Positions 1,994-57,945 of a stretch of DNA of 64,000 bases are shown one piece after another. The stretch's first letter is position 1. Each line of letters begins with the position of its first letter. The notes beneath the pieces are model-generated. The model worked only from the letters and a program-made list of their open reading frames with translations, was not told the origin of the DNA and made no database searches. The position numbers and the translations under genes were made by a program. The stretch is from Chitinophagales bacterium (GTDB taxonomy: Bacteria > Bacteroidota > Bacteroidia > Chitinophagales > UBA2359), in assembly GCA_020629005.1 (NCBI GenBank), contig JAHDEE010000002.1, positions 1 to 64,000 of the forward strand, in the 5' to 3' direction.

Positions 1994-4900
1994 TTACTGC
2001 AATATTATTTTCTGCGCAGCCACGTTCTGCTGATCTATTGCTAAAAGCAGTAAATACATCCCTGATTGAAAAGCCGATACATCTAATTGATGCTCCGCCA
2101 TGCTCATTGACCACTCCCCTAGTTCGCGGCCAGTCAGATCCTTGAGGGTCAATTTATACTGCCCCTGACGAACGGCCAACAGCTCAACGTTGAGGACATC
2201 TCTGGTCATCGTTGGATACACAGCCCACAATCGAGGGACGGCCTGCACATTGGAGCTTAAGAAACTGACGGTAATTTCATCAGAAGCACTACAGTTTGTA
2301 TTGTTGTCAACAACCGTAACACCGTAGGTCCCGCTTGCAGTGACGGTCAGGGTTGGGCTGCTATCACCTGTGCTCCAGTTATACGAAAAATCTCCCGGCT
2401 GAGAAACAGGATTTAGCAAGTACTCATTACCAAATTGCACATCTGTATTCGGTCCCAGGTCCACGACCGGCGTACTTTGAAAATCCATGAAAGTTGATGC
2501 CTCCCCGGAACAACCTCCTGCCGTGCTCACGACGACCGAATAGTTGCCAGGTGTGCTAACCTGAATGCTTGCCGTTTGTTCACCAGTCGACCAAAGGTAA
2601 TTTTCAAAAACATTGTCCAATTGTAATACTACCTCCGTTCCAGCACAAAGATTGCTTGCATCTGGGGCCAATATGTTTGTCTGGATGGCTCCTCCCCCCT
2701 CGATATTAGCGAGAAAGCTACCAACACAACCTTGCTCATTAGTCACCACTAAGAGATAGTCACCTGGCTCCGTAATGACAATGCTATTTTGACTTTCCGG
2801 ATACTCCAGCGGACTGCTGTTGAGAAACCACTCATATTTTTCAAAGGACTGCTCACAGGTTACTGTCAGTGGTTCGTCGTTGCAAATTGACAATTCTCCA
2901 GTATCAGAAATCAATACTGGTTCCGGAGCAGGAATCACTTCGACAAATACACTCATTTGATCTAAGCAACCGTTCGGCTGACTCAAAAAGGCAGTGTATT
3001 CGCCACTGCTGGTCACCTCTAGCGGACCGGTGGTACCGTCTTGCCATTCCATACTCACCTCTTGTTCTGCGGTATTAAAATCGAGAAACAAAGATGCCTG
3101 CCCTTCACAATAAAAGAACTCGCCTGTATTACTGAAAATTTCCCCCTGTATTCCCGGAGCTGACACAAAGGAAATGGCCGCTCCCTGGCACCCTGCATCA
3201 TCTGCCACTATTACATTGTATTGCCCTGGCTCCGCTACTTCCAGGCTCTGACCTAAAGCCCCAGTACCGATCCACTGATAGGCAGAAAAGCCATCGGTTA
3301 CTTCCAGCATCACTGACTCATCGACACACAGATCCCCGATTTGAGATATCTCTGCAACAGGATCCTCTCTCACATCTACCAGCGTTTCTGTAGTATAGGA
3401 GCAATCTCCATCAATCCAGGTATAACGGACCGTATCAATTCCGCTGCCGCTTTGCAATGGATTATACATTGATCCCATGATTCCAGATCCGGAAAAGACA
3501 CCACCGGCAGGATTTGCAGAAATTTCAAAAGGCGGATCAAAGAGGCAAACTGCGTCAGGCAAATTTGCAATGTACAGAGCTTGATCTATGCAACCTTCGG
3601 CTACACAGGTAAGTGGGCCACTAAATCGATTTCCACATATTTCATTGCCAAAGGCTGTCAGTGCAAAGGTGATTTCGTCCCCCAACTCAAGATTGTCCAC
3701 TGTATACTGATTTATGTCAGCGTCCAAAACCACTTCAGATTCGTTTACCTGGAGCAAATAAGATTCTGCTGCTAGCTGTGGTAGCCAACTTACGGTGACA
3801 GAACTTAGATCAGTGGACTCGCAGATCAATCCAGGGTCTTCCAGTGGTAAGGCCACCTGAACATTGATCACATAACTCCCGAAACATTCATCTTCCTGAA
3901 CAATAAGGCTGACTGACTTTTGGCCTCCTGTTGTCCATAAGACTTCATGAGGACCTAAGCCTGTAATGTCGCCACCGATAGCTCCAGAACCAAAATCCCA
4001 AATGTAATTGGCCGAAGAAGAAGCATTGCCAACATATTCAAAGACCAGATCCTCATAGAGGCAGGCTTGCGTTGAACTTGCCTGAAATATTGCCGCCGGC
4101 CCTTCTGTAACCAGAAAGCTGGACTCAAAGATAGAATCGGGACAACCCTCATCTTCGCTCTCAAGGGTATAGGAAACTTCATGTAGCCCCACACCGAGTT
4201 CCGTAGGATTTATCGTGTCACTGCTTTCTCCGTCAATCAGAAAACTTCCACCAGCGGGACTTCCTTCCAGTAATCCACCACTTCCCGTCAAGCAATAGGA
4301 CTCCTGTAGATTGGGAATTTGCACGATTTCCTCACTACAGCCGAGATCATTGAGGAAGAGACTAACTTCTTTAGCATTGTTTTCAAAACAAAGTTCATCT
4401 GACTCTTCCTCCGGATTGATCAGGATTTCAATCTGATTCAAACCCAGGATTTCCTCATAAACCTCAATCTCAAGACTATATACGTTGTCCTCTCCTTCCA
4501 CATAAGTCTTGATACCTTCAAAAAGAAGATCTGTTGATGTTTCAGAAGACCTTATAACTTGTACCGCAAATTCCTGATCGGCTGGATAACCGATATTGCT
4601 GACTCGATAAAACAAATCGACACTTGAAATCCCTTCTTGATTTACAATTGGCGTAAACCAAACATCGCCGGGTTCTAATATGGTAAAATCCGGAAGGGCT
4701 TCTCTTTGAATTCTGATGGCAGGATCTCCCAGGAATTGCAGGTTTTCCAATGTATAACGATCATAGTCGTTTTCTGAAGTCAAATACTGCGAGATTGTTG
4801 CATTCCATGTTTCTCCAACTGGCTCTGCAAAAGCAGAACCTTGGAGCTCACTGACAAATTGATGCAGTACAGGTTCCAGTGATCTATAATAGCTTTTGCC

Positions 4901-7069
4901 ACTAGACCCTATAACAGCGATTGCACCTCGGTTTGCTGCCGTCAGCAGCTTCTGTCCCAGTACTGAATTACCTTGTCCTTGAAAACTTGCGGTTGTGTAA
5001 TCACTGGCAGAAAAGACCAAAGGATAGGCCGCTTGATTTCCCCAACTTGCTGGGTTCGTATTTTCTTCCAGATTCCACCAGGCACCATTACTATCACTTT
5101 CTCCAAAATAGCAAAGCATTCCTGCACCCTCTACAATCCACTCATGGAATTCTTCGAAGTTGGCTGGAACATCATCCTCTGTATTCTCAATCCATGTTTG
5201 CATACCCATTGATAGTGGGCCGGACTCCGAGAGGGCCTCCAGATTGGAAAACAGTCCCGAAAGCCATTCGGATTCTTCTGGATTCCTGGCATGCCCAAGA
5301 AGTGCTTGCCGTTCTCGATATTGGTAGGGTCCTCTTTCGCAGGAGCGGGTCTGTTCTTCATATTGCTGCACCTTATCCAGATAAGCCTGACCTTCTGCAT
5401 TAGACACAATAGGTAGACGTCCAATTGATGCGGTGCTTAGACGTTGATCATTGGAAAATGCATACAGAAAATCGCAAGCAGGACTTCCAATGGCTGGCAT
5501 CAGATTTTCATCCTTCAGTTCTGAATCTTCGGTCAACTGTTTTAGATCCACCCCTGTTCCAAGCAGCAAAACATGCTTTGGTTTGTCCGAAAAATTCTCT
5601 TCCGCAAATGCCAGAAAATTTCGAATGGCCAATGGATGGCCATCAACACCATAAGCAAACTGATCGTACAAGGAGGCCACATTAATCAATACGGATGTGT
5701 TTCCCCCACCAGGATTAGAAGTTCTGTAAAGACCGAAAGAGATGGCTGTCGCCTCTAACTCCTCCGGATACAATATAACATACTTGCCTTGGTTTGCCTG
5801 GAAGTCGAAATTGGTAAAGTTTCGTTCCTCCAACTCAGTGATGTTTTGAATGTTTTCAATCTTCTGGAGAAACAGCTCCCTTACCTCTTCTGATTCAGAT
5901 AGCCTGAAGTGAATAAGGTCATTGATGTTGTTGCCAAAGTAGCGTTCATTGGTCGTCAAATCGTACAAGAGCGGGAACTGCAGATTGGAGCTGAAATTTG
6001 TAAAGGTTAAATGTGGATCAGGGATTAATGGATTGTATACAGTGAATCGCAAAAAACTGACTCCTTCCAGGTCAAAATCTCGGGCATATCGAAGGCTGGC
6101 GTATGCCGCACTTATTTCGTCAAGCTCGCCTAAATCTCCCAAAGATTCTATTTCAAGCAAGTTCACATTCTGCAATTGAGGGGCAGGAATATTGAGTTGA
6201 TACTGAAGCTGCTCATACCCTTCGAGGGTCAGATCATCCATTACTTCTTCATTCCACCTGACTTCGAGATGGTGATCAGGGCTTATAGACAGATCATTGG
6301 AACGACCCAATAGCCCCATTCGCAGGATAGCATTGGGAGTATTTGGGGACAATACTGCTGCATCAGCCTGCAAACCCCTAGATAAGACCTCGCCTGAGCT
6401 AACTGGCTCACTGGAGAAACCTTCACCGGCCTGCATGGCAGCTCTGTTATCCCAACTGGAAGTCCATTCTGAAGCGGCCAAGTCCTGCTCATTTGCATCC
6501 AGCAAGTTTTCTGGTACATATCGGGAACCCAAAAGTCTCGGTTCGCCTCTGTAGTACTCCTCATCAAATACAATCCTGGATTCGTACCAACAATAGCTTT
6601 CCGGTTCTGGTGCACCGGCCAGACTGTTGGTTCCCGTTCCAATGCGAAGATTCTGCTCGGAGTCGGAATCAGTCAAGAAATAAACAGCCTGATTTGAGTA
6701 GAGGCTCTGCGAGCTTTGCATTTGCCAGGATGAATCATCGTACAAGTCCTTATCCAAAAAACCATCGTTTGGCTTCGCGTGAAACTCAATAAAATCTCCT
6801 TGAGCAAACTCCTGAGCAGTAGTCACAAAAATGGGAACCTGCTGTCCATTATTCCACAATTGGAAGCTGCTGCCCTGCATTTCTAGATTGGTGCTGGACA
6901 ATACAGAATAGGGAATCCGGAAGATTCCTTCGTTGCTAATTGAAAACTTGTAATAATGTTTGCTGATGTCAATCCACTCGTTGCCCAGTTGCGCAAATAG
7001 ACAAACGCTTTGGCCAAGGAGCAGGAAAAAAAATAACACTCCTCTAAACCACAACTTATGTTTATTCAT
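1994..7069 (-). CDS. PorU2-like T9SS-secreted protein with a degenerate C25 (gingipain-type) protease site
   Basis: A 1691-residue exported protein. A signal peptide ends near FAQ. An N-terminal beta-rich part is followed by a gingipain/C25-like domain (roughly residues 460-750), a CARDB-like beta segment, several Ig/PKD-like modules and a type A T9SS sorting domain in the last 75 residues. The order matches putative T9SS sortase PorU2 proteins. In that family a His follows FG and a Cys follows a small-residue strand; here the aligned positions are Glu657 (YFGESDS) and Asp690 (FSASDY), so proteolysis is unlikely. The internal ATG at 7069 (MNKHKLW) is preferred to the one at 7099 because it starts a normal signal peptide. 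It may be a structural surface protein derived from a protease. Confidence 0.85.
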   Translation of the reverse strand: MNKHKLWFRGVLFFFLLLGQSVCLFAQLGNEWIDISKHYYKFSISNEGIFRIPYSVLSSTNLEMQGSSFQLWNNGQQVPIFVTTAQEFAQGDFIEFHAKPNDGFLDKDLYDDSSWQMQSSQSLYSNQAVYFLTDSDSEQNLRIGTGTNSLAGAPEPESYCWYESRIVFDEEYYRGEPRLLGSRYVPENLLDANEQDLAASEWTSSWDNRAAMQAGEGFSSEPVSSGEVLSRGLQADAAVLSPNTPNAILRMGLLGRSNDLSISPDHHLEVRWNEEVMDDLTLEGYEQLQYQLNIPAPQLQNVNLLEIESLGDLGELDEISAAYASLRYARDFDLEGVSFLRFTVYNPLIPDPHLTFTNFSSNLQFPLLYDLTTNERYFGNNINDLIHFRLSESEEVRELFLQKIENIQNITELEERNFTNFDFQANQGKYVILYPEELEATAISFGLYRTSNPGGGNTSVLINVASLYDQFAYGVDGHPLAIRNFLAFAEENFSDKPKHVLLLGTGVDLKQLTEDSELKDENLMPAIGSPACDFLYAFSNDQRLSTASIGRLPIVSNAEGQAYLDKVQQYEEQTRSCERGPYQYRERQALLGHARNPEESEWLSGLFSNLEALSESGPLSMGMQTWIENTEDDVPANFEEFHEWIVEGAGMLCYFGESDSNGAWWNLEENTNPASWGNQAAYPLVFSASDYTTASFQGQGNSVLGQKLLTAANRGAIAVIGSSGKSYYRSLEPVLHQFVSELQGSAFAEPVGETWNATISQYLTSENDYDRYTLENLQFLGDPAIRIQREALPDFTILEPGDVWFTPIVNQEGISSVDLFYRVSNIGYPADQEFAVQVIRSSETSTDLLFEGIKTYVEGEDNVYSLEIEVYEEILGLNQIEILINPEEESDELCFENNAKEVSLFLNDLGCSEEIVQIPNLQESYCLTGSGGLLEGSPAGGSFLIDGESSDTINPTELGVGLHEVSYTLESEDEGCPDSIFESSFLVTEGPAAIFQASSTQACLYEDLVFEYVGNASSSANYIWDFGSGAIGGDITGLGPHEVLWTTGGQKSVSLIVQEDECFGSYVINVQVALPLEDPGLICESTDLSSVTVSWLPQLAAESYLLQVNESEVVLDADINQYTVDNLELGDEITFALTAFGNEICGNRFSGPLTCVAEGCIDQALYIANLPDAVCLFDPPFEISANPAGGVFSGSGIMGSMYNPLQSGSGIDTVRYTWIDGDCSYTTETLVDVREDPVAEISQIGDLCVDESVMLEVTDGFSAYQWIGTGALGQSLEVAEPGQYNVIVADDAGCQGAAISFVSAPGIQGEIFSNTGEFFYCEGQASLFLDFNTAEQEVSMEWQDGTTGPLEVTSSGEYTAFLSQPNGCLDQMSVFVEVIPAPEPVLISDTGELSICNDEPLTVTCEQSFEKYEWFLNSSPLEYPESQNSIVITEPGDYLLVVTNEQGCVGSFLANIEGGGAIQTNILAPDASNLCAGTEVVLQLDNVFENYLWSTGEQTASIQVSTPGNYSVVVSTAGGCSGEASTFMDFQSTPVVDLGPNTDVQFGNEYLLNPVSQPGDFSYNWSTGDSSPTLTVTASGTYGVTVVDNNTNCSASDEITVSFLSSNVQAVPRLWAVYPTMTRDVLNVELLAVRQGQYKLTLKDLTGRELGEWSMSMAEHQLDVSAFQSGMYLLLLAIDQQNVAAQKIILQ

Positions 7070-7237
7070 ATATGCCTGATCTTGACCTAAAAATAGCAAT
7101 ATAGATGCCAGATAACAACAAAACTCTACTAATCAGAGCATATGTAGCTAACCAAACATTAGACGCAAGAAAACAGGCTGGAGATGCCCAAAAAGGTCAA
7201 TTTCGGAAAAAAATTTAATGAGTTTTGGAGCTGCAAG

Positions 7238-7344: not shown

Positions 7345-10300
7345 CTAGATGCTGCTTGGATTAAATTCCTTGATAATACGGTAGTCAATCTCGTCAAAAT
7401 CGTTTGCCTCAGAGGATAAAAAATCCTTCATTGACTTGGCAATCGCAGTGTCTTCCGCATTGTAGCTCTTTTGGGCAAGACTGATCTTATCTTCGAGTCT
7501 TTCCAGCAAATCTCTGCCCTTTTGCAAAGCGAGAAAATCTCTGGATTTGATGAGCGTTTCACCAAGTAAATTCCCCTCAAACCGATAGCCATCTGGACCT
7601 TGCACCAACAAGCCAAATAGTCTGGCAAATGTAAGAGCCCGCCTTTGCCTATCGGTGTTTCCGCCCATTAAAAGAAGACTGGGAAACATTTCCTGATCAA
7701 CTGCTCTTGGAAAAGCAAAGAAATCCTTAGCATCTAGCTTGGAAGTTTGCTGGAGCTTTTGGAATTTAGATCGGCACTCCTGAATGATATTGATCTTGAA
7801 GGCCGGGAATCCCATACGCACATACATCAAATTGATGTTGTTCTTGTCCTTGATCGCAAAAGTGCTCACTTTGGTTCCACTCGCTGCAGCAACAAGCTCT
7901 AGTATCTTTTCCCCTTGCGGAAATCGTTCATCTCGGCACAGTTGAAGCACATTTAGTGAGCGGTCAGCTTCAAGCATACTTTCCAAATTGATATAGGGTT
8001 TTGCCGCATCCACCAATTTCTTGATCTCTCGATTCAGGTCCCTGTCTATGCTGTTGCTGATTCCTTGCTTACGATCAATTTCCTTGTATTCTTCCCGATC
8101 AAAGTCCCCAGCTATCAGCTTGCTGTAAATATCGCTTCCGCTAAGTGCAGCACCCTTTTCACTGAAGTGATCCTCTAGATCGCGGTTCAGTTTGTCTAGA
8201 TTGTTGCTTTTCACGAAATCCTGATAGTAGGACAATACCTTTTCAGGCTTGTCAAAAAAGTCACCCTTTTGATACGTTTCCTTGAAGTGGTCTTCCACTG
8301 CTTCTTTTCCGATGATATAGCGAACAAAGAGGTTGTTCTTAAATTTCTGCTTATTGACCTTTACCTCTTCCTGCACCATCTGTTCCTGAATCTTCTTCTT
8401 GAAGTGATGGATATTTTCTTTCTCATAGTGAATCTCGTCTATCAGCTGCTGTAGACAGTCGTAAGCGGCTTCATGCTGAAAATACTCCGATTGCTGCTGA
8501 TACGCGGATGCTTTGTTCTCGACAAAATCCCTCAGCAAAGTGATCTTATCGGTAGCTACCGAATCATGAAAAGCAATACTTTGATCCAACGGAGCTTTGA
8601 ACTTTTTTCTGTATCGCATGATGAAAATCACATAATACACAGCGAATACAAGGACAATAAACGGTAGAATAAACTTCCAGGCATTGGTAGTGAAAACCAA
8701 TTCCCATTCTAAAATTGCATTAACCGCAAAAACTGCAAGAATCACCAAGGGCAAGATCACCAGCCACCATCGGATGTACTTTGAACACTTCTCCTTCCAG
8801 CTGCTAACCCTGCTTCTGGCATCTACAAGTTTGGTTTCTGTTTCATGAATCTTTGCTTCCAGCTGTTCGGCTTTCTCATCAAACTGTTTCTTGTCCGTTT
8901 CCCAAAGTTGCTTCCTGGTACTGCTCTGCCGTAAATTGACTTTGAAGTCTTCGTAGTTCTTGTAGTCCGATTCAAACTGCTTAATTTTTGCCTTGAGTTC
9001 TTCTTCTACTTTAGCGCTCTGATCACGCATCGCCACCAATTCAGATTCCATCTTGATCTTGTCCACAGTCGTCGATTTATCTCCCGCTTCAAGCCTCAGC
9101 TTTTCTCTTTCCAGACGCTCCTCTCCTTGTCGAATCTTGCGATGCAATTCTACCACTTCGCGTTGCTCATTCCCAATCTCGGACTCCATTTGTTTGAGCT
9201 GATTGGCGCCAATGCTAAGACCCAACTTTTCCTGATAAAAACCGAGTATTTCCTGCTCTACTGAGATCAGATCCTTTTCCGGAAAGGTCTCATCATGCGA
9301 TACGCAATCACAATCTTCACGCAATAGGAAACTGGTAAAACCATGTGCGAAATTGATGCCGTTTTCAGACTTCCCAAACTGACTTGCGAGTTCTGCCCGC
9401 AGCTGCGCTTTCAACTTCTTAGCCAAAGCATCAGCACGATTGCCATAAGCGGGTGCAATCTGCACATTGAAATCATTTAGGCGATACTTCTCCTCGGCAG
9501 CGTCGAGTTGCTCCAGGTACTTTTTGGGGTCCAGATTCTCGTCAATCTTGACGAGACTACTCAGTCCTTTGTAAATTGGATTTCCGTCATCTGAGCCTTG
9601 TCCGCACAAATCGTAAATTTTGCTCCAGGAATTCCGCTCAATGAAGGTACTTGTATAAAGATTCAATTCGTCTCTGGCAACTGACTTTGGATCTCGAAAG
9701 AGCCTATCCAGCTCCGACAAGGTGGCCTGCTTACCAAGTGCTTGATAAGTAGTTCTAATCTGCGCCTCTGGAAAGGTCAGCGTCGCCAATCCAAAGGAGG
9801 AGTAGCGATTGGTTTTGCCAGAAGACTCCTCATGCAAAAACAAGTGCGCATTTTCAACGATCGACAATCTACCGCAGAAAAGCATATAAGAAAACTCACC
9901 TAAGGAATCCAGCATGTCCTCAAATCGCCCGATGCTATGATCATCGATATTCTTTTTACCGATGATAAAGGGGTAGTTGATTAGCTGGCCTTCTTGAGAC
10001 AATACCATCTCCATCTCTGCCAAACAGCAATATGCCCTCGCATATTCAAAATCCCGAAGTGTCTTGTATTGAGTAGCAAAAAAGTTATCTGTATCCTTTA
10101 ACTGAAGCAATTGAATGCTTTCGAAATGCTCGTAGAAGGTGTCCATGTCAAGGCCTACCAGGTGATCCTGACCATGTGGATTGTATAAATCAAAAGTCTT
10201 ATTACGCTCGTTAATACGGTGCAATGCGTAGCAATGATTATGAAATAACTCTCCATGCCTCTCTTCTGTTCCCGAATCAGTCTCGCGACTTAGAAAAACA

Positions 10301-11412
10301 ACAGGAAGGCGCTTCTTCTCAAAATGCTCCAAAACTTGGGAGAATAAAACCTCAGTGTCCTTGGTTTCAACTGTCTTCAACTCAATGGCCTGCTCTCCCC
10401 CCAAGGCAAAGGCAAAAGGATACTTTGTTCGATTTCTTCCAGCCGTATTTTCATAGCCCTTGTTTAACTTTGCCCAGGCCTTTTCCAAAATCATCGGCCA
10501 AAGTTCTACAGACTTACCTTCCTTGTCGCCACTCTTTGCATAAATTGTTGCTGTTGTTCCATCTGCAACCCACATCTTATCATCTACTGTGACGAATTCC
10601 TCCTTCCCCTGATCCGAAAAGAACCTTACAGTATAAGTTCCATCAGGATTGTGAACCACCATGTTTTCGATAAAATCAGGAGATTGTAAAGCAATGGCCG
10701 CAAGAGCAGCCATAAAATAGCAGTTCGAAACAGATCCTTGATCTACATCTGAAATGTCTATTGCCGTTCTATCGCCTTCCCCTCGCAGAAACAAGACGCC
10801 ATGTTTGTTGTATTGGCTTATGCTTCGATATACATAAGCGCCCTTGTGCTTATCAAGCAATTCGATTTCTTCAGAGGCTTCATAGTCAGCCACAATCTCC
10901 TCTATCGAATCCTTAGAAAGCCGCGATAAATCGGGCAGCAGCGAAACCGTGAAAACCTCCACCTCTTTATTATTGAGAATCTTTTCGAGCATTCTCAATA
11001 AGGGAATGAAAAAGACAGAACCAACTGTATCAAATAGAGGAGCAAAAATCACAACACGGTGCTTGGAAAGTTCACTGATTCCGCTATCGATCAATCGCTG
11101 TCGATCTTCCAATCGCAGCATGTCATTGATCTTCTCCGTCAGGTAATTTTGCAGGTCCTCTTCTTTGTCGTAGAAGGCCTTCAAATTCTGCTCGAATACA
11201 CGCTCCGAACAAATGTAGTTTTCGCATTCGAGCTTCAGTACCTGCTTCTGATTCGCTCGACTATAGGATCGGACCACACCCTCCTCATCAATCACAAGAT
11301 CAGCAATGATGCTGGCATAGAGCGGATCCTTTGCAATTACAGACTGCACGGCCTTCTGCACAACATTGTCGCCATAAGAGCCCAGGCCGATAAATATAGT
11401 AGGGTGTATCAT
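7345..11412 (-). CDS. Degenerate tubulin-like protein with an inserted calpain-type cysteine protease domain and a membrane anchor
   Basis: 1355 residues and last gene of a five-gene operon. The start resembles a tubulin/FtsZ nucleotide-binding fold (FIGLGSYGDNVV, residues 7-18), but the T4 loop is degenerate (FDTVGSVFF near residue 130, against GGTGSGTF in the neighbour). Residues about 215-420 form a calpain-like domain: Gln225-Gly, Cys231 in SNCYF, His393 in NHCYAL and Asn411 in YNPHG. The Gln to Cys spacing of six is that of calpains. After it the sequence again resembles the neighbour's tubulin-like domain (YPFIIG, then YSSFGLATL), so the protease is inserted within the fold. Then come long coiled coils (about 720-870 and 960-1010) around two membrane helices (about 880-935) and a charged C-terminal region. 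Activity and substrate are unknown. Confidence 0.85.
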   Translation of the reverse strand: MIHPTIFIGLGSYGDNVVQKAVQSVIAKDPLYASIIADLVIDEEGVVRSYSRANQKQVLKLECENYICSERVFEQNLKAFYDKEEDLQNYLTEKINDMLRLEDRQRLIDSGISELSKHRVVIFAPLFDTVGSVFFIPLLRMLEKILNNKEVEVFTVSLLPDLSRLSKDSIEEIVADYEASEEIELLDKHKGAYVYRSISQYNKHGVLFLRGEGDRTAIDISDVDQGSVSNCYFMAALAAIALQSPDFIENMVVHNPDGTYTVRFFSDQGKEEFVTVDDKMWVADGTTATIYAKSGDKEGKSVELWPMILEKAWAKLNKGYENTAGRNRTKYPFAFALGGEQAIELKTVETKDTEVLFSQVLEHFEKKRLPVVFLSRETDSGTEERHGELFHNHCYALHRINERNKTFDLYNPHGQDHLVGLDMDTFYEHFESIQLLQLKDTDNFFATQYKTLRDFEYARAYCCLAEMEMVLSQEGQLINYPFIIGKKNIDDHSIGRFEDMLDSLGEFSYMLFCGRLSIVENAHLFLHEESSGKTNRYSSFGLATLTFPEAQIRTTYQALGKQATLSELDRLFRDPKSVARDELNLYTSTFIERNSWSKIYDLCGQGSDDGNPIYKGLSSLVKIDENLDPKKYLEQLDAAEEKYRLNDFNVQIAPAYGNRADALAKKLKAQLRAELASQFGKSENGINFAHGFTSFLLREDCDCVSHDETFPEKDLISVEQEILGFYQEKLGLSIGANQLKQMESEIGNEQREVVELHRKIRQGEERLEREKLRLEAGDKSTTVDKIKMESELVAMRDQSAKVEEELKAKIKQFESDYKNYEDFKVNLRQSSTRKQLWETDKKQFDEKAEQLEAKIHETETKLVDARSRVSSWKEKCSKYIRWWLVILPLVILAVFAVNAILEWELVFTTNAWKFILPFIVLVFAVYYVIFIMRYRKKFKAPLDQSIAFHDSVATDKITLLRDFVENKASAYQQQSEYFQHEAAYDCLQQLIDEIHYEKENIHHFKKKIQEQMVQEEVKVNKQKFKNNLFVRYIIGKEAVEDHFKETYQKGDFFDKPEKVLSYYQDFVKSNNLDKLNRDLEDHFSEKGAALSGSDIYSKLIAGDFDREEYKEIDRKQGISNSIDRDLNREIKKLVDAAKPYINLESMLEADRSLNVLQLCRDERFPQGEKILELVAAASGTKVSTFAIKDKNNINLMYVRMGFPAFKINIIQECRSKFQKLQQTSKLDAKDFFAFPRAVDQEMFPSLLLMGGNTDRQRRALTFARLFGLLVQGPDGYRFEGNLLGETLIKSRDFLALQKGRDLLERLEDKISLAQKSYNAEDTAIAKSMKDFLSSEANDFDEIDYRIIKEFNPSSI

Positions 11413-11435
11413 GAACTTAGATTTACTCTTGTCTG

Positions 11436-12083
11436 CTAGAACTTTGGCAACTGCTTTCCTCCAGAATTCCGCTTCTGATTATTCACGTTAAATCGATCCC
11501 AAAAACCACCGCGAGAGCGTTTTTCTTTCTTTGGCGCATTCGCTCCATACACTCGCTGGCCCTTAAGTACTCTGCTACTCCTTAGCAACTTGGCCAACTT
11601 GCGCTTCTTTACTTGCAACCATACTTCCCCTTCAGTGAAGTGCGTCTCGTAATCCTTGTAAGAATCCCAAGTGGCTAATCGTTGGCCAAATGCATCCTGA
11701 TCTCTTCGCAACAAGTAGCGATTGCCGTATGCAACTTCGCTGGAGTCACTTTCGTAAAATATGTATTTACCCGCCTCAAAGGCGATACCTACCCTATGAC
11801 TGCCTCGTTGATATAAACAGGTTCCGGGAGTATTTCGTGATACAGTCACCATGTCATAACCCGAACCAGAATCAAATTGCAAAACGCCGAGTTCATCCAC
11901 TTCGATATCACCACTGGTGCCGTCAATTCGCTTCAAAGCAAAGCCGTTAGAAGTATAATACTGTACTTCAGAAAGGTCAATATTGCTTCGCTCCAATTCT
12001 TCTCTCAAAGTTTGGGTAAAGTCAATTTTGCGAGCGCAGGATGACAATAGAATGATAAAGCAAAGGGGTAGTAGGTATCTCAT
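11436..12083 (-). CDS. Small lipoprotein of the tubulin-calpain operon
   Basis: 215 residues with a typical type II signal peptide: hydrophobic stretch and LLSSC lipobox, lipidated Cys16. The rest is a beta-prone domain (residues about 30-160) and a very basic tail rich in Lys, Arg and Gly. No known family was recognised. The ATG at 12083 is preferred to a TTG six bases upstream. It lies 9 bp after the tubulin-like GTPase stop and 23 bp before the calpain-containing gene, so it is almost certainly co-transcribed. The lack of an Asp at +2 favours outer-membrane sorting, but rules in this phylum are less certain. A role as an envelope-side partner is inferred from context alone. Confidence 0.85.
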   Translation of the reverse strand: MRYLLPLCFIILLSSCARKIDFTQTLREELERSNIDLSEVQYYTSNGFALKRIDGTSGDIEVDELGVLQFDSGSGYDMVTVSRNTPGTCLYQRGSHRVGIAFEAGKYIFYESDSSEVAYGNRYLLRRDQDAFGQRLATWDSYKDYETHFTEGEVWLQVKKRKLAKLLRSSRVLKGQRVYGANAPKKEKRSRGGFWDRFNVNNQKRNSGGKQLPKF

Positions 12084-12092
12084 CAACAATGC

Positions 12093-14876
12093 TTACATGA
12101 TCGATGATTCGTACTTGGCAACTAACTCCGCAATAACCCTTAACTCCGCATTGATCAGCTTATAAGTGCTCTCATTTTGCTTCAGCGTTGTCATAGTCAT
12201 ATTGGTGTACTCCTTTACATTTTCCTTGAACTTCTCGTGATACTCTCGAAGCTTATTCAGGACCTGCTCATCACCAAGACGCTTATATTCGGTATCCAGC
12301 AACTTGGTTGTCACTTCAACATGCTTCTTCAGGAATTCATTATAGGCCTCCCTGCGATCCGTTGTGTCCAGATTCACCTTATCATCATTCAATGGATCAG
12401 TTCCCTCTTCCATTTGTACCATATAAGGACCACGCAGTGATTTCCTGCTCACCAACCCAAAGGCATTCGCCTCTGCCCAAACTTTCAAATTGCTTGCCTC
12501 ATCCTTACTCGGGAACAAATCATAGCCAATTTCATCCATCTGCTTCTTCCAGCTTCTGTCGATGTGATAATCATAACGAGCAGACTCACTGAGATACTTT
12601 CTTCTGAAGCGGTCCATCCGGCTCAGTGTATAGGCGGGAACAGCCGCAGCAAACTTATAGAAGTAAATCCTTTGAGGATCATTTGTTACGGCCATACTGG
12701 GTCGGTCTCCCAAAGCAATTTCGAACAAAGGCATCTTATTGGTGGGATCTTCATCTTTCAGAGCAGTATTTCTGTCGTCGTTTACACCGACCAGGTAGAT
12801 ATAGCTTGGCTGATGTACCAACTCTTCTTTGGAATAGGTCCACAGCGGATCAGACTTGGCTTCCAAAGTTTCCAGCAACTTGACCTGCATTTCCTGTGGC
12901 AGTTTACGGAAAGCTGTATCCACATCCATCTCCGAAAAATTCTTGGCCTTATTTGCCGTACCAGCATAGCCAATAAACAAGTCCATCACTTGCTTGCTGT
13001 TGATCGAATTCCAAGACGACACTTTATTCTCACCAATATAGTTGAAGAAGTCAACCATATTATAATCGCTTTCCTGAATCTCAACCTCCGTGAGGAAGAG
13101 GTCATGCAGATCAACCACATACGAAGTATTTCCACCACGTCGATCGGTCAATGCAGTCGTTGTCTGCTGCACCTGCACAGCAATATCTGCAAGGTGCTTC
13201 TCAATATTGGCGATATCCTGCAGCTTGAAATCCATGCTCTCCAGAAGCGCATTATAAAAACGCAAGGCACTATCTCTTCTGGTAATCTCCTTAATGGCAG
13301 TCGCCATCGAAACCACCTTCGCATAATAATCCTCAACCGCTTCTTGGATTCTTCCCTTCTTCCCAAATGGATTAAATCCTTCTTCTTCTTCAAGAATATC
13401 ATCAATCATCAGCTTAGCTTCCTTCTCGTAGCTGGTCTGCTGCTCAAGGTAAGTAGCCTTCTCCGTTTTCATTTCCTCCTTATAGGCACTCAAATTACCT
13501 TTCACCAATGTGATAAATTCCTTGCAGTAGAAAATCCCTCCGCTCTTGTTCAGTTGATCGTTCAGATAGGTATCCACAAGTCCCCGCTTTTCAGCAATCA
13601 GCGCATCTGTATTACCATCCGCAGCTTTCAGATTTTCCTTGATGATCTCCAGGTATTTTTGCGCATTTAACTGCGCCGACTGACTCGTTCCCTTCTTGTA
13701 ACCATCCGGCTCACTTGGGCGGATACCGCTGCCCTGACTTATATCGAAGATCGCATCTATTACCTCATCATGCGGTTGCGCTTCCCTGATCTTCCACTCA
13801 CTCAGCTTTGCCTCCACATCTTCCGAAATTTGCACCTCTGTGGCAGGCATTCTCAGCTTATCAATCATCGCCTTCGTGAGTTTATTGCTGAAGATGCTCT
13901 TAAGCTTCTCGCCATCGTAAAACAACTCCGAAATCCCCATACTACAATAGTTGGAGGATTTACCTTTCACATTCAAGGCATCGTTCACAAATTTCCTAAG
14001 GTTGTCCCATACAGAATCTCCGGCATCACCAATTACACCTGTCGAAAGATATAGACCTGTACCCAATATCTCATTTAAAGCAGAGATATCGTTTTGCCCA
14101 ATCTTATTCTCCGTAATATTATCTATAGTGATTATATTATCGTAAGGACTCATATTCATGGATACAGCATGCTCGCCTCCATAATCTATGCTATCCTTAA
14201 GCAAATGTCCATCGAGCAAGAAGTCCAACTCCTTAAAAGCACCGTAGCTATTGGCCTCCACATTCTTGGTCCCCTCGAACTGAAGGAAAATATTAGGCAT
14301 CATCGTATAAGCCATCATGGTATCCGTATGATCAATCCCAATATCACGAAGCAGATAGGGAATATCCAGGAAGGTACCGGAACCAGTACCTCCTGCTGTC
14401 GAGAATACAGTGGATACCTGAATATCACCACCATGAATCTCATAAGGATCATCAGCGCTAGGACGATAAGTTCTCAAATCGTCTACAATGTTACTGAGTC
14501 GATCTCTTACCTCTTGTTGATTAAAAAACAGCGCCAACCTTCCAAGTGAACGTATCTGACCTGCTCCTTTGTTGATTGCACCTGCATTCTTCTTATTTTT
14601 TTCCGGAAAGAAATTACTGATATGCTCTTTGGCCTCAATGTACTTAAGCCCATTTGGAACTGCAATGTGCAGAAACTCCCGCTTCCCAAAAGTCAACATC
14701 TCTCCTTGCTCGCCACGTAGCTGCTTCATCTTAGGATCGGTGTCCAAAACCAAAAATCTAATCATAGGTGGAATTTCACCATGCACTTTGATCAGCTTCC
14801 GCTTAGCGTACAGCAGAGCCCGTGCCCCCGTTCCTCCTAGTCCAATAAATAGTGATTTCTTCAGTTTCTTTGCCAT
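12093..14876 (-). CDS. Tubulin/FtsZ-like GTPase (tubulin-like domain protein)
   Basis: A 927-residue cytoplasmic protein without signal peptide. Residues 11-20 (IGLGGTGARA) match the first glycine-rich loop and residues 161-169 (AGGTGSGTF) the phosphate-binding signature of the tubulin/FtsZ superfamily; LVLDTDP (43-50) fits the next nucleotide-contacting strand. It is more than twice the length of FtsZ, with long helical, coiled-coil-prone regions in the middle and C-terminus, as in the large bacterial tubulin-like family. GTP binding is well supported; polymerisation is inferred from the superfamily. It lies between two lipoprotein genes, in the same operon as a second, degenerate tubulin-like protein with a calpain insert, which suggests a heterotypic pair. 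Confidence 0.9.
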   Translation of the reverse strand: MAKKLKKSLFIGLGGTGARALLYAKRKLIKVHGEIPPMIRFLVLDTDPKMKQLRGEQGEMLTFGKREFLHIAVPNGLKYIEAKEHISNFFPEKNKKNAGAINKGAGQIRSLGRLALFFNQQEVRDRLSNIVDDLRTYRPSADDPYEIHGGDIQVSTVFSTAGGTGSGTFLDIPYLLRDIGIDHTDTMMAYTMMPNIFLQFEGTKNVEANSYGAFKELDFLLDGHLLKDSIDYGGEHAVSMNMSPYDNIITIDNITENKIGQNDISALNEILGTGLYLSTGVIGDAGDSVWDNLRKFVNDALNVKGKSSNYCSMGISELFYDGEKLKSIFSNKLTKAMIDKLRMPATEVQISEDVEAKLSEWKIREAQPHDEVIDAIFDISQGSGIRPSEPDGYKKGTSQSAQLNAQKYLEIIKENLKAADGNTDALIAEKRGLVDTYLNDQLNKSGGIFYCKEFITLVKGNLSAYKEEMKTEKATYLEQQTSYEKEAKLMIDDILEEEEGFNPFGKKGRIQEAVEDYYAKVVSMATAIKEITRRDSALRFYNALLESMDFKLQDIANIEKHLADIAVQVQQTTTALTDRRGGNTSYVVDLHDLFLTEVEIQESDYNMVDFFNYIGENKVSSWNSINSKQVMDLFIGYAGTANKAKNFSEMDVDTAFRKLPQEMQVKLLETLEAKSDPLWTYSKEELVHQPSYIYLVGVNDDRNTALKDEDPTNKMPLFEIALGDRPSMAVTNDPQRIYFYKFAAAVPAYTLSRMDRFRRKYLSESARYDYHIDRSWKKQMDEIGYDLFPSKDEASNLKVWAEANAFGLVSRKSLRGPYMVQMEEGTDPLNDDKVNLDTTDRREAYNEFLKKHVEVTTKLLDTEYKRLGDEQVLNKLREYHEKFKENVKEYTNMTMTTLKQNESTYKLINAELRVIAELVAKYESSIM

Positions 14877-14927
14877 AATGCTTAAGGTTGAAATTTAAGT
14901 GATGTTAGCCTGGGGCATAACATAATC

Positions 14928-15866
14928 CTATCTGCTCTTTTGAAATCTAAACTTAATATCTTTCTTACCAGACCGCTTGATCTCGAACTCTTCGAAGTCT
15001 TTTACCAGGCCGCGACTATAAGGTCGAATATCAATTCCTGTCTTGGTTTTTAAGCGCACTTGAGTCTTTAGCCCTTTGCGCTTTGGCTGCAATTCAATAA
15101 GAAAGGGTTCGTCCTTCATATACTGTTCGATCTTGCCTGTGAAGATCCGACTAAGCAATCCCTGCTTGATGATTTTTTCGCCGCCCAAATATACCAATCG
15201 TTTTCCCTTCAATCGAATTTTCTTGTGCTGGGGCCAGTCAAAATTGAACTCTCCGCCGGAAAAGCGCGGATACATCAAAGGACGCACAAAAATAAACCAG
15301 GTCAACAGCAAAGACAAAATAAAGACCGAAGTCCAAAACATAATGAACTTCCACAACGGAACCATCAAACGCACCGACCATCCAAGGGGCCCTACGGATG
15401 ACAAAGCCTGATCGTTGATGTAGTCCAGGCTCGCTGCATTGGTCTCCAACAATATCTGACCTTCAAATTTATCCGAACGACCAAGTTTCAATAATCGAGC
15501 AATTCCAGGCTCAACACTGCGGTCCACAAATCGTATTCCCATTTGCACTACACTATCCTGACCCAGCGAATTTGCCCGCACTTTAAGTACTCCTCCTGAC
15601 GATCGTTCACCGTTGAACAACAACTCTGCATGGGGAAAAGTATTCCCCCCCCTATCTGTCAACCGCAAATTCACATAACTGCCCTTCTTGATCGCCTCAT
15701 CGTTGAACTTGAACAGCACACTCCTGGTAGCATCTTCCTTAAAATACGTTTTGCCAAGTTTTATTTCCTGATAGCCCTTCCACATCTGCTTATCTTCATC
15801 ACAAGCAGAGACCAGCAGCAGCACCGGCAAAAGCAATAACAAACTTCTAGTGGTTTTCCAATTCAT
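14928..15866 (-). CDS. Membrane-anchored lipoprotein of the tubulin-calpain operon
   Basis: 312 residues. An N-terminal hydrophobic segment ends in LLVSAC, a lipobox followed by Asp. A beta-rich, probably periplasmic region follows. A strong membrane helix near residues 170-197 (LWKFIMFWTSVFILSLLLTW) precedes a basic C-terminal domain with short beta strands (KGKRLVYLGGEKI). No family was recognised. The ATG at 15866 is preferred to a TTG at 15878 because it begins the standard signal sequence. The gene starts 18 bp after the vWA gene and ends 51 bp before the tubulin-like GTPase. It could link a periplasmic vWA protein to a cytoplasmic tubulin-like polymer; that role is an inference from topology and order. 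Confidence 0.85.
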   Translation of the reverse strand: MNWKTTRSLLLLLPVLLLVSACDEDKQMWKGYQEIKLGKTYFKEDATRSVLFKFNDEAIKKGSYVNLRLTDRGGNTFPHAELLFNGERSSGGVLKVRANSLGQDSVVQMGIRFVDRSVEPGIARLLKLGRSDKFEGQILLETNAASLDYINDQALSSVGPLGWSVRLMVPLWKFIMFWTSVFILSLLLTWFIFVRPLMYPRFSGGEFNFDWPQHKKIRLKGKRLVYLGGEKIIKQGLLSRIFTGKIEQYMKDEPFLIELQPKRKGLKTQVRLKTKTGIDIRPYSRGLVKDFEEFEIKRSGKKDIKFRFQKSR

Positions 15867-15884
15867 CTCAATGGACAATTTGCA

Positions 15885-16940
15885 TTAGTCTTCCAGCACT
15901 TTAATCGTAAGGGTCTTTACTTTTTTGTTGCTGATCAATACATCGACCTCATTTGTACCCTTAGTAAAATAAGCTCTTGCATTGCTGCCCTTCGGATTAT
16001 AAAGCTTTATCTTTCCAGTCAATGAACCTGACTCCAGCGCCTTACTGATCGCCTGCAGAGAAGGTATTCCCCGCAATTGAAACGTCACCTCGTTATTCTC
16101 ATCCACACGATAGCCGTCAAGTTTCGTCAAAGCCAGCAATGTACCGGAAGGCAATTCCTGATCCAGCTCCAGTCTGGCCGAGAAACTTAAGTCCTGAGGT
16201 TTATCTATGATATGAAAACCCAAATTGGCCGCATGCATATTCTGTAGGCTAAAATTCAGGCGATCACTCCTGGCTGTCAAATAAACAATCTTCTTAAAAA
16301 TCTTGTCACCGGAAGGTTTATCAAATGCCAGATTTTCACAGGCAGACATCAGAGAATTCAGCTCACTGTCTCGCAGCAAATCAGGGCGATAAGAAATGAA
16401 GAAGGTGAAATCCTTACCCTTAGTAGACGTTCGACAATACTTCTTGATCACCTCAGACAAACAATCTTCCTTGCTATAAGCCTTCCCATCCATGCGATAA
16501 TCAACATTCTGCTTTCCATCCGTAAACACATAGAATATATTCTGCCGCTCGCTGCCCATAAACATATTCAAACTGTAATCCCAGGCCTCACAGATATTTG
16601 TGTTCGTTACCGCATCTGGTATTTCACTATTTTGCACATAAGCCAGCGCCTTCGCCTTCCCGCTCTCATTATTATCAAATTGCTTTATCTCCGACTGAAT
16701 CACCCCATCCTGAAAAGGGATGATGATAATCTTACCACCATCCATCGGCGCATACCTAATCTGGTTAATCATCGAAGCTTTCACTTCCTGCCACACATTC
16801 TGATTTCCATTATAACCAATCATCGACTTGGTCACATCCATCACAAATATGCGGTTATGCTCTACAAATTGTGCAAGCACCAGCTGACCATTGCCTAGCA
16901 ATAGCCCAACTGAGAGCACCAAAACCGATCGAATAGACAT
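15885..16940 (-). CDS. Exported von Willebrand factor A (vWA) domain protein
   Basis: 351 residues and the first gene of the operon. A cleavable signal peptide (cut near residue 23-24) is followed directly by a vWA domain. FVMDVTKSM contains the metal-binding MIDAS motif as Asp35-x-Thr37-x-Ser39, and FYVFTDGKQN supplies the later Asp-Gly motif. The C-terminal 120 residues are beta-rich and may be a second sandwich domain. vWA domains bind protein partners through a divalent metal. Export places it in the periplasm or facing it. vWA proteins are known companions of FtsZ-like proteins in some bacteria. Transcription probably starts at the promoter just upstream (16966-16996). Confidence 0.9.
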   Translation of the reverse strand: MSIRSVLVLSVGLLLGNGQLVLAQFVEHNRIFVMDVTKSMIGYNGNQNVWQEVKASMINQIRYAPMDGGKIIIIPFQDGVIQSEIKQFDNNESGKAKALAYVQNSEIPDAVTNTNICEAWDYSLNMFMGSERQNIFYVFTDGKQNVDYRMDGKAYSKEDCLSEVIKKYCRTSTKGKDFTFFISYRPDLLRDSELNSLMSACENLAFDKPSGDKIFKKIVYLTARSDRLNFSLQNMHAANLGFHIIDKPQDLSFSARLELDQELPSGTLLALTKLDGYRVDENNEVTFQLRGIPSLQAISKALESGSLTGKIKLYNPKGSNARAYFTKGTNEVDVLISNKKVKTLTIKVLED

Positions 16941-40039: not shown

Positions 40040-43000
40040 CTAGTTCTTGACGAATTTGATTGTACTCTGTTCGCCTTCCCAAGCCAGGCTCAGGAGGTAG
40101 GTACCTGCCGGGAAGTTGGCAGCATCTATTCGCCAGGTGTATTGTCCTTTTTCATCGGACCTTCTTTCTTCAAAGATGAGTCTTCCCAGCACATCGTGAA
40201 TTTGCACTTGCACTGTTCCGTCTGCCGGTAGCAAAAAGTCGACATTGAGGAAATCGAGCACCGGAACTGGCGACAGGTTCATGATACCAAAGCTCAAATC
40301 GCCTCTCGTGAGGCTTACGATATTGCTTGGCGTTTCTGTACCATCAATGTCGGTCAGTATCAACTGGTAATAGCTGGTACCTCGTGGCGCATCCTTATCG
40401 AGATGCTGGTAGTTGATTACCTGCGAGCTATAATTTGCCGCCTCGATTTCTGCGATGGACTCATAGTACTGACCATCGGTGGAGCGCATCAGGGTAAAGT
40501 AATCTGTCGCTTCTTCCATTGCGGTTGACCAATACAAGAGATTACCTTCTTCTTCCACTCTGCCATCAAAACCAAGTAGCTCCATACCCACATTTTCGCA
40601 GTCTCCAACTGCAAGTAATGCTATCGGACATCCTTCAGAATCAATCACAAAAATCTCCAGGTCCCTATCGGCAGGCACAGGGCCAAGGTAAGGTACCGGG
40701 AAGTCTTCAACTGCGATTGTTTCGTTGTAGAATTCTCCTGCATTAATCTGATAGGGTGAATTTCCTCCCACAATAGACAGACCAACAAAGTATTGGTCGC
40801 CATTACAAACGATTGAGGCGTTTGCAGACAGTTCGTTACAATCGAAGCTTTCGTAGAGACCTCCACTGACTTCAGTTACGGTATCGCCCTCCACTAGCTC
40901 TATGATTGGTGAGATGCCTTCTTGATTGAAGTCACTATCAATGCTTTCATCTGTTCCCTCATCCTGCGGGGAAATATTGAGACCAAAGGGCACATCCATT
41001 ATAATGTAGTAGGAACCTGGAGCAAGATTATCGAAAGTGTAGGCACCTGTTTCGTCTGTGACGGTCGTTTGCAGCTGCACATTTTCATCGGTGAACAGTG
41101 TAACGGTTACACCGCCGAAACCATCTTCGTCTTCATCCCGAATTCCGTCTTTGTTTACATCCTCCCAAATGAAGTCGGTGATCATGCCGAGCTCTATCTC
41201 GCCTGCCCAGTTACCACTAATGGTGGTGCCGCAATCATCGACCGTTTCACTAGTGAAGTCTATTTCGTAGTCGCCATTGAAGATTGGGCCAACTAGCACA
41301 AATCCTTCTGTTTGGCCAGACAGTGGACTGTTCACGCCGTCTTCTATAGTCCAGGTTCCGGCTGCTACAAAGTCAACGGCAACATAGAATCTCGTGGCAT
41401 CGAGTACCACAATTTCCGAACTTGTGGAAATGGCGCATTCGTCTTCTCCGCCACCTCCGCCGCCGCCGCCGCCGGGATTGTCTTCGTCACAAACTTTGGT
41501 TCCGCTGGCAGTACGCACGCAGGTTTCATCTGTCTGATCTGTAATGATGAACTCATATTCCTGCTCATCAAATGGCCCAAGAGATAGCGTGCCGCCGGTG
41601 AAATCGGGGATGGATTCTCCCATGCCTTCAATCAAATAAGTACCGGAACCGTCGACGAATAGATCTACTGTATAGGTCGTTGTCTGAGCGATGCAACTTG
41701 CGTTAGCAACCACATCGATATTGCAAGGTACATCGATGCTGCAATTTCTATTTCCGCTTACTGTCTGGAAGCAGTCAGGATTATTCTGGTCAGTTACGGC
41801 GATGGTGTAGGATCCACTTGGAATTGGCCCTACTTCGTAAGTGCCTGCGACGACATCGCCTATAGCTGGATTTACTCCATCAAAAATGATATAAGTGCCA
41901 ATACCTTCCACTGTTAGGCTCACTGAGAAGAAATCATCATCAATGCAGGTGATCTCGCCATCAATACCCAAGGAGCAATCAGGAAGATTTGCACAGTCCT
42001 TGAAGCCGACGATGCTGGAAGTACAATCTTCGATTTGTTCACTTGTCACCGTGATATTATATGCACCATTCGGGAATGGGCCCAGGAAGACCGTTCCCTG
42101 CACCACTCCGGTTAGCACTTGTCCCTGGCCGTCATCTACGGTGTAGGTACCGGTGCCGAGGAATGTAACTTCAACCGAGTAGCTATCTTCGTCGATACAG
42201 GAGACAATTGCCGAGGTGGACAGCGGGCATTCGTCAGGATTTTGATCGCAGACCGCGAAACCGCTAAGCGACTGGCTACAATCTGCCAGGACATCAGAGC
42301 TGATCAAGATGTTGTATGGAGGAGTGGTAAAAGGACCCAATTCGAGTTCGCCCTGACTTACTCCTTCTGCCAAAACTTGCGATCCATCGTAGACACTATA
42401 AGTGCCCGATCCTTCTATATTGATATTGATGTTGTAGAAGTCGGTATCTCCAATACAAGCGTAATCTATGAACTGGGCATTGAGATCACAGTTAGGTGGA
42501 TTGCTGCAATCCACATTTCCTGACTGACCTGCAAAGCACTCGTTGTTTTGTTCGTCTTCTACGAAGATGTCGAAGAAGCCAAATTCAAAATTCTCGATCA
42601 GGAAGTCACCAGCTACCTGACCTTCGAGTGGGGTGAATCCTGAAGCTGTACTGTTGATGGTATAGGTGCTGTTTCCGGTTATGGTTAGTAGTACATTGAA
42701 GAAGTCTTCGCTTACACAAGTTGTTTCCGTACCAAGTTGCAGGGTACAAGTACCATCATCTGAGCAATCGCTGGAACCGGTAAGCTCCTGGAAGCAGCCG
42801 GGATCAATCTCACTTTGAATAGTAACAGTATAGTTATTTGCAGAGAATGGACCGAAAGGATATGTGCCTGCCTCAAGTCCGGTGGTTATATTTCCAAAAC
42901 CATCGTTTACCAGGAAGGTACCTCCTCCATTTATTTCAACTACGAGCTGATAAGTATCCTCTGTGATACATTCATCATCAACATCTGCAATCAGTGTACA

Positions 43001-57871: not shown

Positions 57872-57945
57872 TTTTTTGAGGCCATTGCCGGCAAAAACAT
57901 GGTTCTCAATCATATCATAATGCCAGCAGATAAATTAATTCAGGG

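Follow-up and report, generated by a model that had tools for sequence, protein, structure and literature searches.

We describe here a calpain-type protease which very probably lies inside a tubulin-like domain. The window, that is the whole stretch of 64,000 nucleotides analysed (Chitinophagales bacterium GCA_020629005.1, contig JAHDEE010000002.1, positions 1-64,000, forward strand), carries at 7345-11412, on the minus strand like every other window feature given below, a gene with an ATG start and no internal stop, whose product of 1355 amino acids is a calpain-bearing divergent paralogue of FtsZl1/Tubulin_2. We place the calpain, with high confidence, after the LLPD strand of the tubulin-like domain and before the helix that comes next. 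A protease nested in a tubulin-like protein in this way hints at proteolysis under the control of a cytoskeleton-like assembly. We compared seven homologues, namely the window protein and those of six more Chitinophagales metagenome-assembled genomes (G396, G399, G408, G412, G434 and G415); the gene of G434 is interrupted by a run of X in translation, standing for unknown bases, and hence appears split.

The evidence for the insertion comes from a Tubulin_2 profile made from ten other Tubulin_2 proteins. All seven homologues match this profile in ordered pieces, which fall within model positions 2-93 and 123-206 before the calpain and run from 209 up to 412 after it: each protein either has ordered matches on both flanks or is matched straight across the site, and the alignment breaks at about model positions 206-209. 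Some pieces are missing in some homologues, and a piece from before the calpain, taken alone, is weak. The summed scores are 14-26 bits, while shuffled sequences (300 per protein, 2100 in all) reach at most 12.9 bits and mostly stay below 8, and negative scores are obtained for reversed sequences and for 19 unrelated calpains. In the window protein, residues 3-94 and 470-601 match in order with 22.0 bits, against at most 4.3 in its own shuffles. When the calpain was excised in silico, a Pfam Tubulin_2 match running across the junction appeared in three of the five proteins tested, the window protein included (E 4.7e-4, 0.0048 and 6.8e-6); in the same proteins left uncut this match is absent or, for the window protein, covers the second half only (E 0.023). 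A spliced profile-profile alignment with the neighbouring Tubulin_2 protein of 927 amino acids gives a score of 40.7 (P 1.9e-4), five shuffles giving 21.4 or less. The initial annotation had proposed a tubulin-like start (PTIFIGLG), a return to tubulin-like sequence after the calpain, and a protease inserted within the tubulin-like domain; the first two are recovered as the ordered matches just given, and the third is supported at the level of sequence by the co-linear flanks and the junction-spanning matches.

The Pfam Tubulin_2 cut-off of 27 bits is missed by the intact window protein (14.4) and, once the calpain is removed, by the same protein (19.9) and by the best homologue (26.0). By its matches the 1355-residue protein is thus a divergent relative of FtsZl1/Tubulin_2 which stays below Pfam-level membership. 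No Tubulin_2 homology was found at other calpain loci outside Chitinophagales, and a search with the post-calpain profile through 399 genomes of the order and 20 of the family returned no calpain-free version of the protein (empty site).

On the gene, the first half of the tubulin-like domain (residues 1-203, 10804-11412) comprises the T1 loop, strands, a degenerate T4 loop and the LLPDL strand, and is delimited by the profile matches. The inserted segment with the calpain follows (residues 204-447, 10072-10803). The second half (residues 448-735, 9208-10071, also placed by profile matches) has a helix around NxYAxxKELDF, a strand around YDxxxxIxN, the GKxxRYSSxG motif and a conserved GINFAHxF region.

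The calpain itself is complete, as the initial annotation had it. Peptidase_C2 (PF00648) matches residues 218-418 (10159-10761) with E 8.4e-23 and 81.3 bits, for a Pfam cut-off of 23.8; a genome-wide profile search returned this protein as the sole calpain match of the whole genome (E 1.5e-23), and none of the 14 control genomes gave a calpain match. A phmmer search of the PDB with the protein returned calpain-1, -2, -3, -5, -8 and -9. In an alignment with about 30 other bacterial calpains, four residues fall on the active site, at the positions first proposed: Gln225 (codon 10738-10740), Cys231 (10720-10722), His393 (10234-10236) and Asn411 (10180-10182). By profile and by active-site residues the protein is a calpain of family C2, and it is predicted to be proteolytic. 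The whole active site is kept in six of the seven homologues, Gln and Cys being lost in G415 only. When three segments of the protein are compared between homologues, conservation is highest in the calpain, except in pairs with G415 and in the pair within the genus. An intact active site in six of seven, with a calpain that is as a rule conserved above the other segments, suggests selection for catalysis. Within the genus, the calpain changes fastest at residues 301-380 (10273-10512), where identity is down to 61%, the tubulin-like flanks having 82-86%, yet the active site stays intact. Synonymous sites within the genus were too saturated for an estimate of selection.

The host domain has diverged at its nucleotide site. 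The glycine-rich loop GGTG(S/A/G)GT is kept in all six neighbouring Tubulin_2 proteins and degenerate in all seven calpain proteins; in the window protein the site of the GTP-binding T4 loop (residues 118-140, 10993-11061) reads PLFDTVGSVFFI instead of GGTGSG. Because the loop is degenerate in every homologue, GTP binding by the calpain protein is unlikely, and the host domain, having lost its nucleotide loop, probably serves as a pseudo-GTPase partner, without driving polymerisation by GTP itself. Homology with the neighbour is found at the other end as well: the C-terminal domain (residues 1166-1353, 7354-7917) is related to that of the 927-residue protein by hhalign (score 42.5, P 5.7e-5; shuffles at most 15.9). 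As this homology reaches the C-terminal domain too, we conclude from these comparisons that the 1355-residue protein is a duplicate of FtsZl1 over its full length, much diverged, which carries a calpain insert and, in its stalk, a two-helix membrane hairpin (residues 883-932). The two membrane helices of the initial annotation are predicted again by hydropathy, at residues 883-901 and 914-932 (8617-8766). Of the coiled coils announced with them there remains a coiled-coil-like region at about residues 738-868 (8809-9201), for which a weak match to Rod_CreS (crescentin rod) is the sole basis.

We also modelled residues 1-735 with AF2 (AlphaFold2), from the alignment of the seven sequences. The mean pLDDT (predicted local distance difference test) is 57.7; the model is good for residues 1-160 (mostly 66-90), moderate for the calpain and for residues 444-512, and below 50 for residues 161-229 and 515-619. 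In a Foldseek search of the PDB the model finds a calpain first (E 1.9e-7), and ranks 4 to 8 all belong to the tubulin superfamily (gamma-tubulin; CetZ, probability 1.00; TubZ, probability 1.00), at weak E values of 0.007-0.018. This supports the presence of both a calpain and a tubulin fold in the model, which does not decide whether the second half completes the first. The question posed with the initial annotation, whether residues 1-210 and 420-620 form a single packed domain, thus finds only a partial answer: residues 1-160 are confident, 444-512 moderate, and Foldseek matches to tubulins come after the calpain, while the stretches 161-229 and 515-619 are too poorly predicted to carry it. 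The 927-residue neighbour was itself poorly modelled (pLDDT 52), and a PDB sequence search with it gave no relevant match.

The gene closes an operon whose order in the window is vWA, membrane adaptor, Tubulin_2, lipoprotein, calpain-tubulin, with gaps of 3-51 bases. The first gene (15885-16940) encodes an exported vWA-domain protein of 351 amino acids (VWA_2, E 3e-6) with a conserved DVTxSM (MIDAS-like) motif. The second (14928-15878) encodes a protein of 316 amino acids, a probable trans-membrane adaptor with a lipobox-like N terminus, one membrane span and a conserved C-terminal domain. The third (12093-14876) is the canonical FtsZl1 (Tubulin_2) of 927 amino acids, with an intact GGTGSG loop (PF13809, E 2.3e-52). 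The fourth (11436-12089) is a predicted lipoprotein of 217 amino acids seen in this genus only. Directly downstream of the operon lies a gingipain-type (C25) peptidase of 1701 amino acids with a type IX secretion tail (1994-7099), and at another locus, L032, a gene of similar size occupies the corresponding position (10449-15521). The window also contains an open reading frame of 5957 amino acids (40040-57913). In G408, an AAA/MoxR-like ATPase and a CoxE-like vWA protein (L034:15502-17885) stand upstream of the vWA/Tubulin_2/calpain operon; they are not found beside the operon of the window. The window genome has a second, ordinary FtsZl1 of 1130 amino acids (L125, G000:C363:5000-18000), adjoined by a protein of 691 amino acids with a vWA-like start (LVVMTLDDSGSM) and no Pfam match at E 0.01.

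Of the seven genomes that encode the calpain protein, six have the Tubulin_2 partner. Partner and calpain gene share one contig in the window genome, G396, G408, G412 and G434; in G399 the partner is on a separate short contig (C649) and the calpain gene on C494, so that adjacency is not shown there. The vWA and adaptor genes were found in six genomes (window, G396, G399, G408, G415, G434). In three of these (the window genome, G396 and G408) they share the contig of the partner; the other three have them on separate contigs, and the pair stops at a contig end in G399 and G434, which fits assembly breaks. Neither gene was found in G412, where the calpain contig begins at the Tubulin_2 gene. 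The vWA/membrane-adaptor/Tubulin_2/calpain-tubulin operon is thus shown in the genomes where the assembly permits the check.

G415 departs from this arrangement. Its assembly, 97% complete, gave no Tubulin_2 match anywhere; immediately after its vWA and adaptor genes comes a gene judged SurE-like by the start of its sequence, and the calpain gene is found on other contigs, preceded by an unrelated gene. The Gln and Cys are those missing from its calpain; a frameshift behind the loss of the Cys was considered and rejected, the DNA having no restoring frame. Between G434 and G415 identity falls to 46% in the calpain and is 58% in the segment after it, and no branch in the inserted-calpain clade is longer than that of G415 (0.78; G434 has 0.37). 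This pattern fits a predicted loss of proteolysis once the Tubulin_2 partner was gone.

In a tree sampled from the loci of one pattern-based scan, the inserted calpains form one clade (support 99/97), and of all sequences sampled, the one that groups as their sister (99/97) is L051, a protein of Methylobacter titanis which joins eCIS_core to a calpain. The simplest reading would be a single capture from an effector-type calpain. The calpain-eCIS_core fusions of Methylobacter titanis (L051:8038-10881) and of G064 (L003:1405-3093) are candidate cargo of extracellular contractile injection systems.

The architecture is well supported, whereas for the mechanism we infer the following. The overall explanation that we put forward, proteolysis tethered at the membrane and controlled through co-assembly with the GTPase partner, seems to us to have about an even chance of being right. 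The exported vWA protein would sense the outside, and the membrane adaptor would pass its signal to the cytoplasmic GTPase partner of 927 residues, which would assemble with the membrane-anchored pseudo-tubulin; the assembly or the nucleotide state could then position or unmask the calpain, which would cut envelope-associated or cytoplasmic substrates. The pseudo-GTPase would in this way serve as a regulated docking platform for the protease. The narrower version, in which GTP-dependent assembly of the Tubulin_2 partner with the pseudo-tubulin directly switches the calpain on or off under the exported vWA sensor, is more tentative.

Alternatively, the operon might encode a conflict or defence effector, with tubulin/vWA sensing of the type seen in nucleoside triphosphate (NTP)-dependent conflict systems and a toxic calpain which kills or arrests the cell when it is infected or its envelope is breached. 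We find this unlikely, if worth keeping in mind: tubulin and vWA neighbourhoods are described as GTPase-centred conflict systems in the relevant part of PMC7159879, the calpain that comes closest in the tree carries a fused eCIS_core, a domain typical of injected effectors, and the distribution is patchy; however, neither inspection nor Pfam revealed a TRAFAC GTPase, GAP1 or other conflict gene in the operon, the PADLOC defence library gave only a weak coiled-coil match, and the flanking genes resemble secretion and housekeeping genes. A comparison with PHROGs gave no match. Less probable again is a membrane-remodelling complex in which the calpain acts solely on the complex (by self-processing for disassembly) or is a structural module. 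Remodelling is the role proposed for FtsZl1/vWA operons in the passages of PMC2875224 used here, the protein has a membrane hairpin, and G415 keeps the calpain fold without its Gln and Cys; the full active site and the usual conservation of the calpain in the other homologues, which suggest selected catalysis, speak against it. An end-to-end fusion of an N-terminal fragment, a calpain and an unrelated C-terminal protein, with no insertion, would suit the low AF2 confidence after residue 515 and the fact that the intact proteins pass the Pfam cut-off for calpain only, but it is very improbable given the ordered, consecutive Tubulin_2 matches with their shuffle controls, the junction-spanning Pfam matches and the C-terminal homology to the neighbour.

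Some observations weigh against a calpain nested in a tubulin-like domain and acting under co-assembly with the GTPase partner. Excision restored a Tubulin_2 match in just the three proteins of five, and the sliding-excision control is nearly flat over many positions, because the second half holds most of the Tubulin_2 signal, around GKxxRYSSxG. The model is poor past residue 515, which leaves the joint packing of the two tubulin halves without structural demonstration. Within the genus the calpain diverges faster than its flanks (70% identity against 82-86%). Finally, the coupling is seen only once, in the draft genome of G415.

Knowledge of FtsZl1/vWA systems from sequence goes back to 2010. 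In the literature searched we came across no biochemical read-out for these systems; a protease-bearing member offers a directly assayable one. A tubulin-superfamily domain may here serve as a regulatory scaffold for an enzyme, and the operon provides a natural pseudo-tubulin/GTPase pair together with a lineage of predicted natural loss of activity (G415) for comparison.

The open-licence literature, to which our search extended (subscription papers and preprints lay outside it), gave no description of an architecture joining a calpain to a tubulin- or FtsZ-like domain. With the bacterial calpains of family C2 (Rawlings 2015, PMC4631099) the protein shares the catalytic Gln/Cys/His/Asn and the Peptidase_C2 match; none of the calpain architectures given there is tubulin-like, and tubulin and FtsZ occur 0 times in that paper. 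It shares with the Methylobacter titanis protein its place as sister in the tree and the NPHG motif at the Asn, but the latter is fused to an injection-system core domain and has no tubulin part. The GAP1-N2 GTPase-centred conflict systems (Kaur et al. 2020, PMC7159879) include tubulin and vWA neighbourhoods, among them Firmicutes neighbourhoods with two tubulin genes. The window operon resembles them, as far as the relevant portion of that paper goes, in its paired coiled-coil tubulin genes and its vWA genes, membrane-proximal in both; it differs in lacking the TRAFAC GTPase/GAP1, and the text of that paper nowhere uses the word calpain. The closest known systems are the FtsZl1/Tubulin_2 (PF13809) operons with vWA genes (Makarova and Koonin 2010, PMC2875224), for which the sole domain fusion named in the sections drawn on here is an N-terminal protein kinase, in Planctomycetes. 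By those sections, the window protein has in common with FtsZl1 a tubulin-like N terminus, a coiled-coil middle and a helical C terminus, in an operon with vWA and membrane-associated proteins; what sets it apart is the calpain within the tubulin-like domain, the lost GGTGSG and the membrane hairpin in the stalk.

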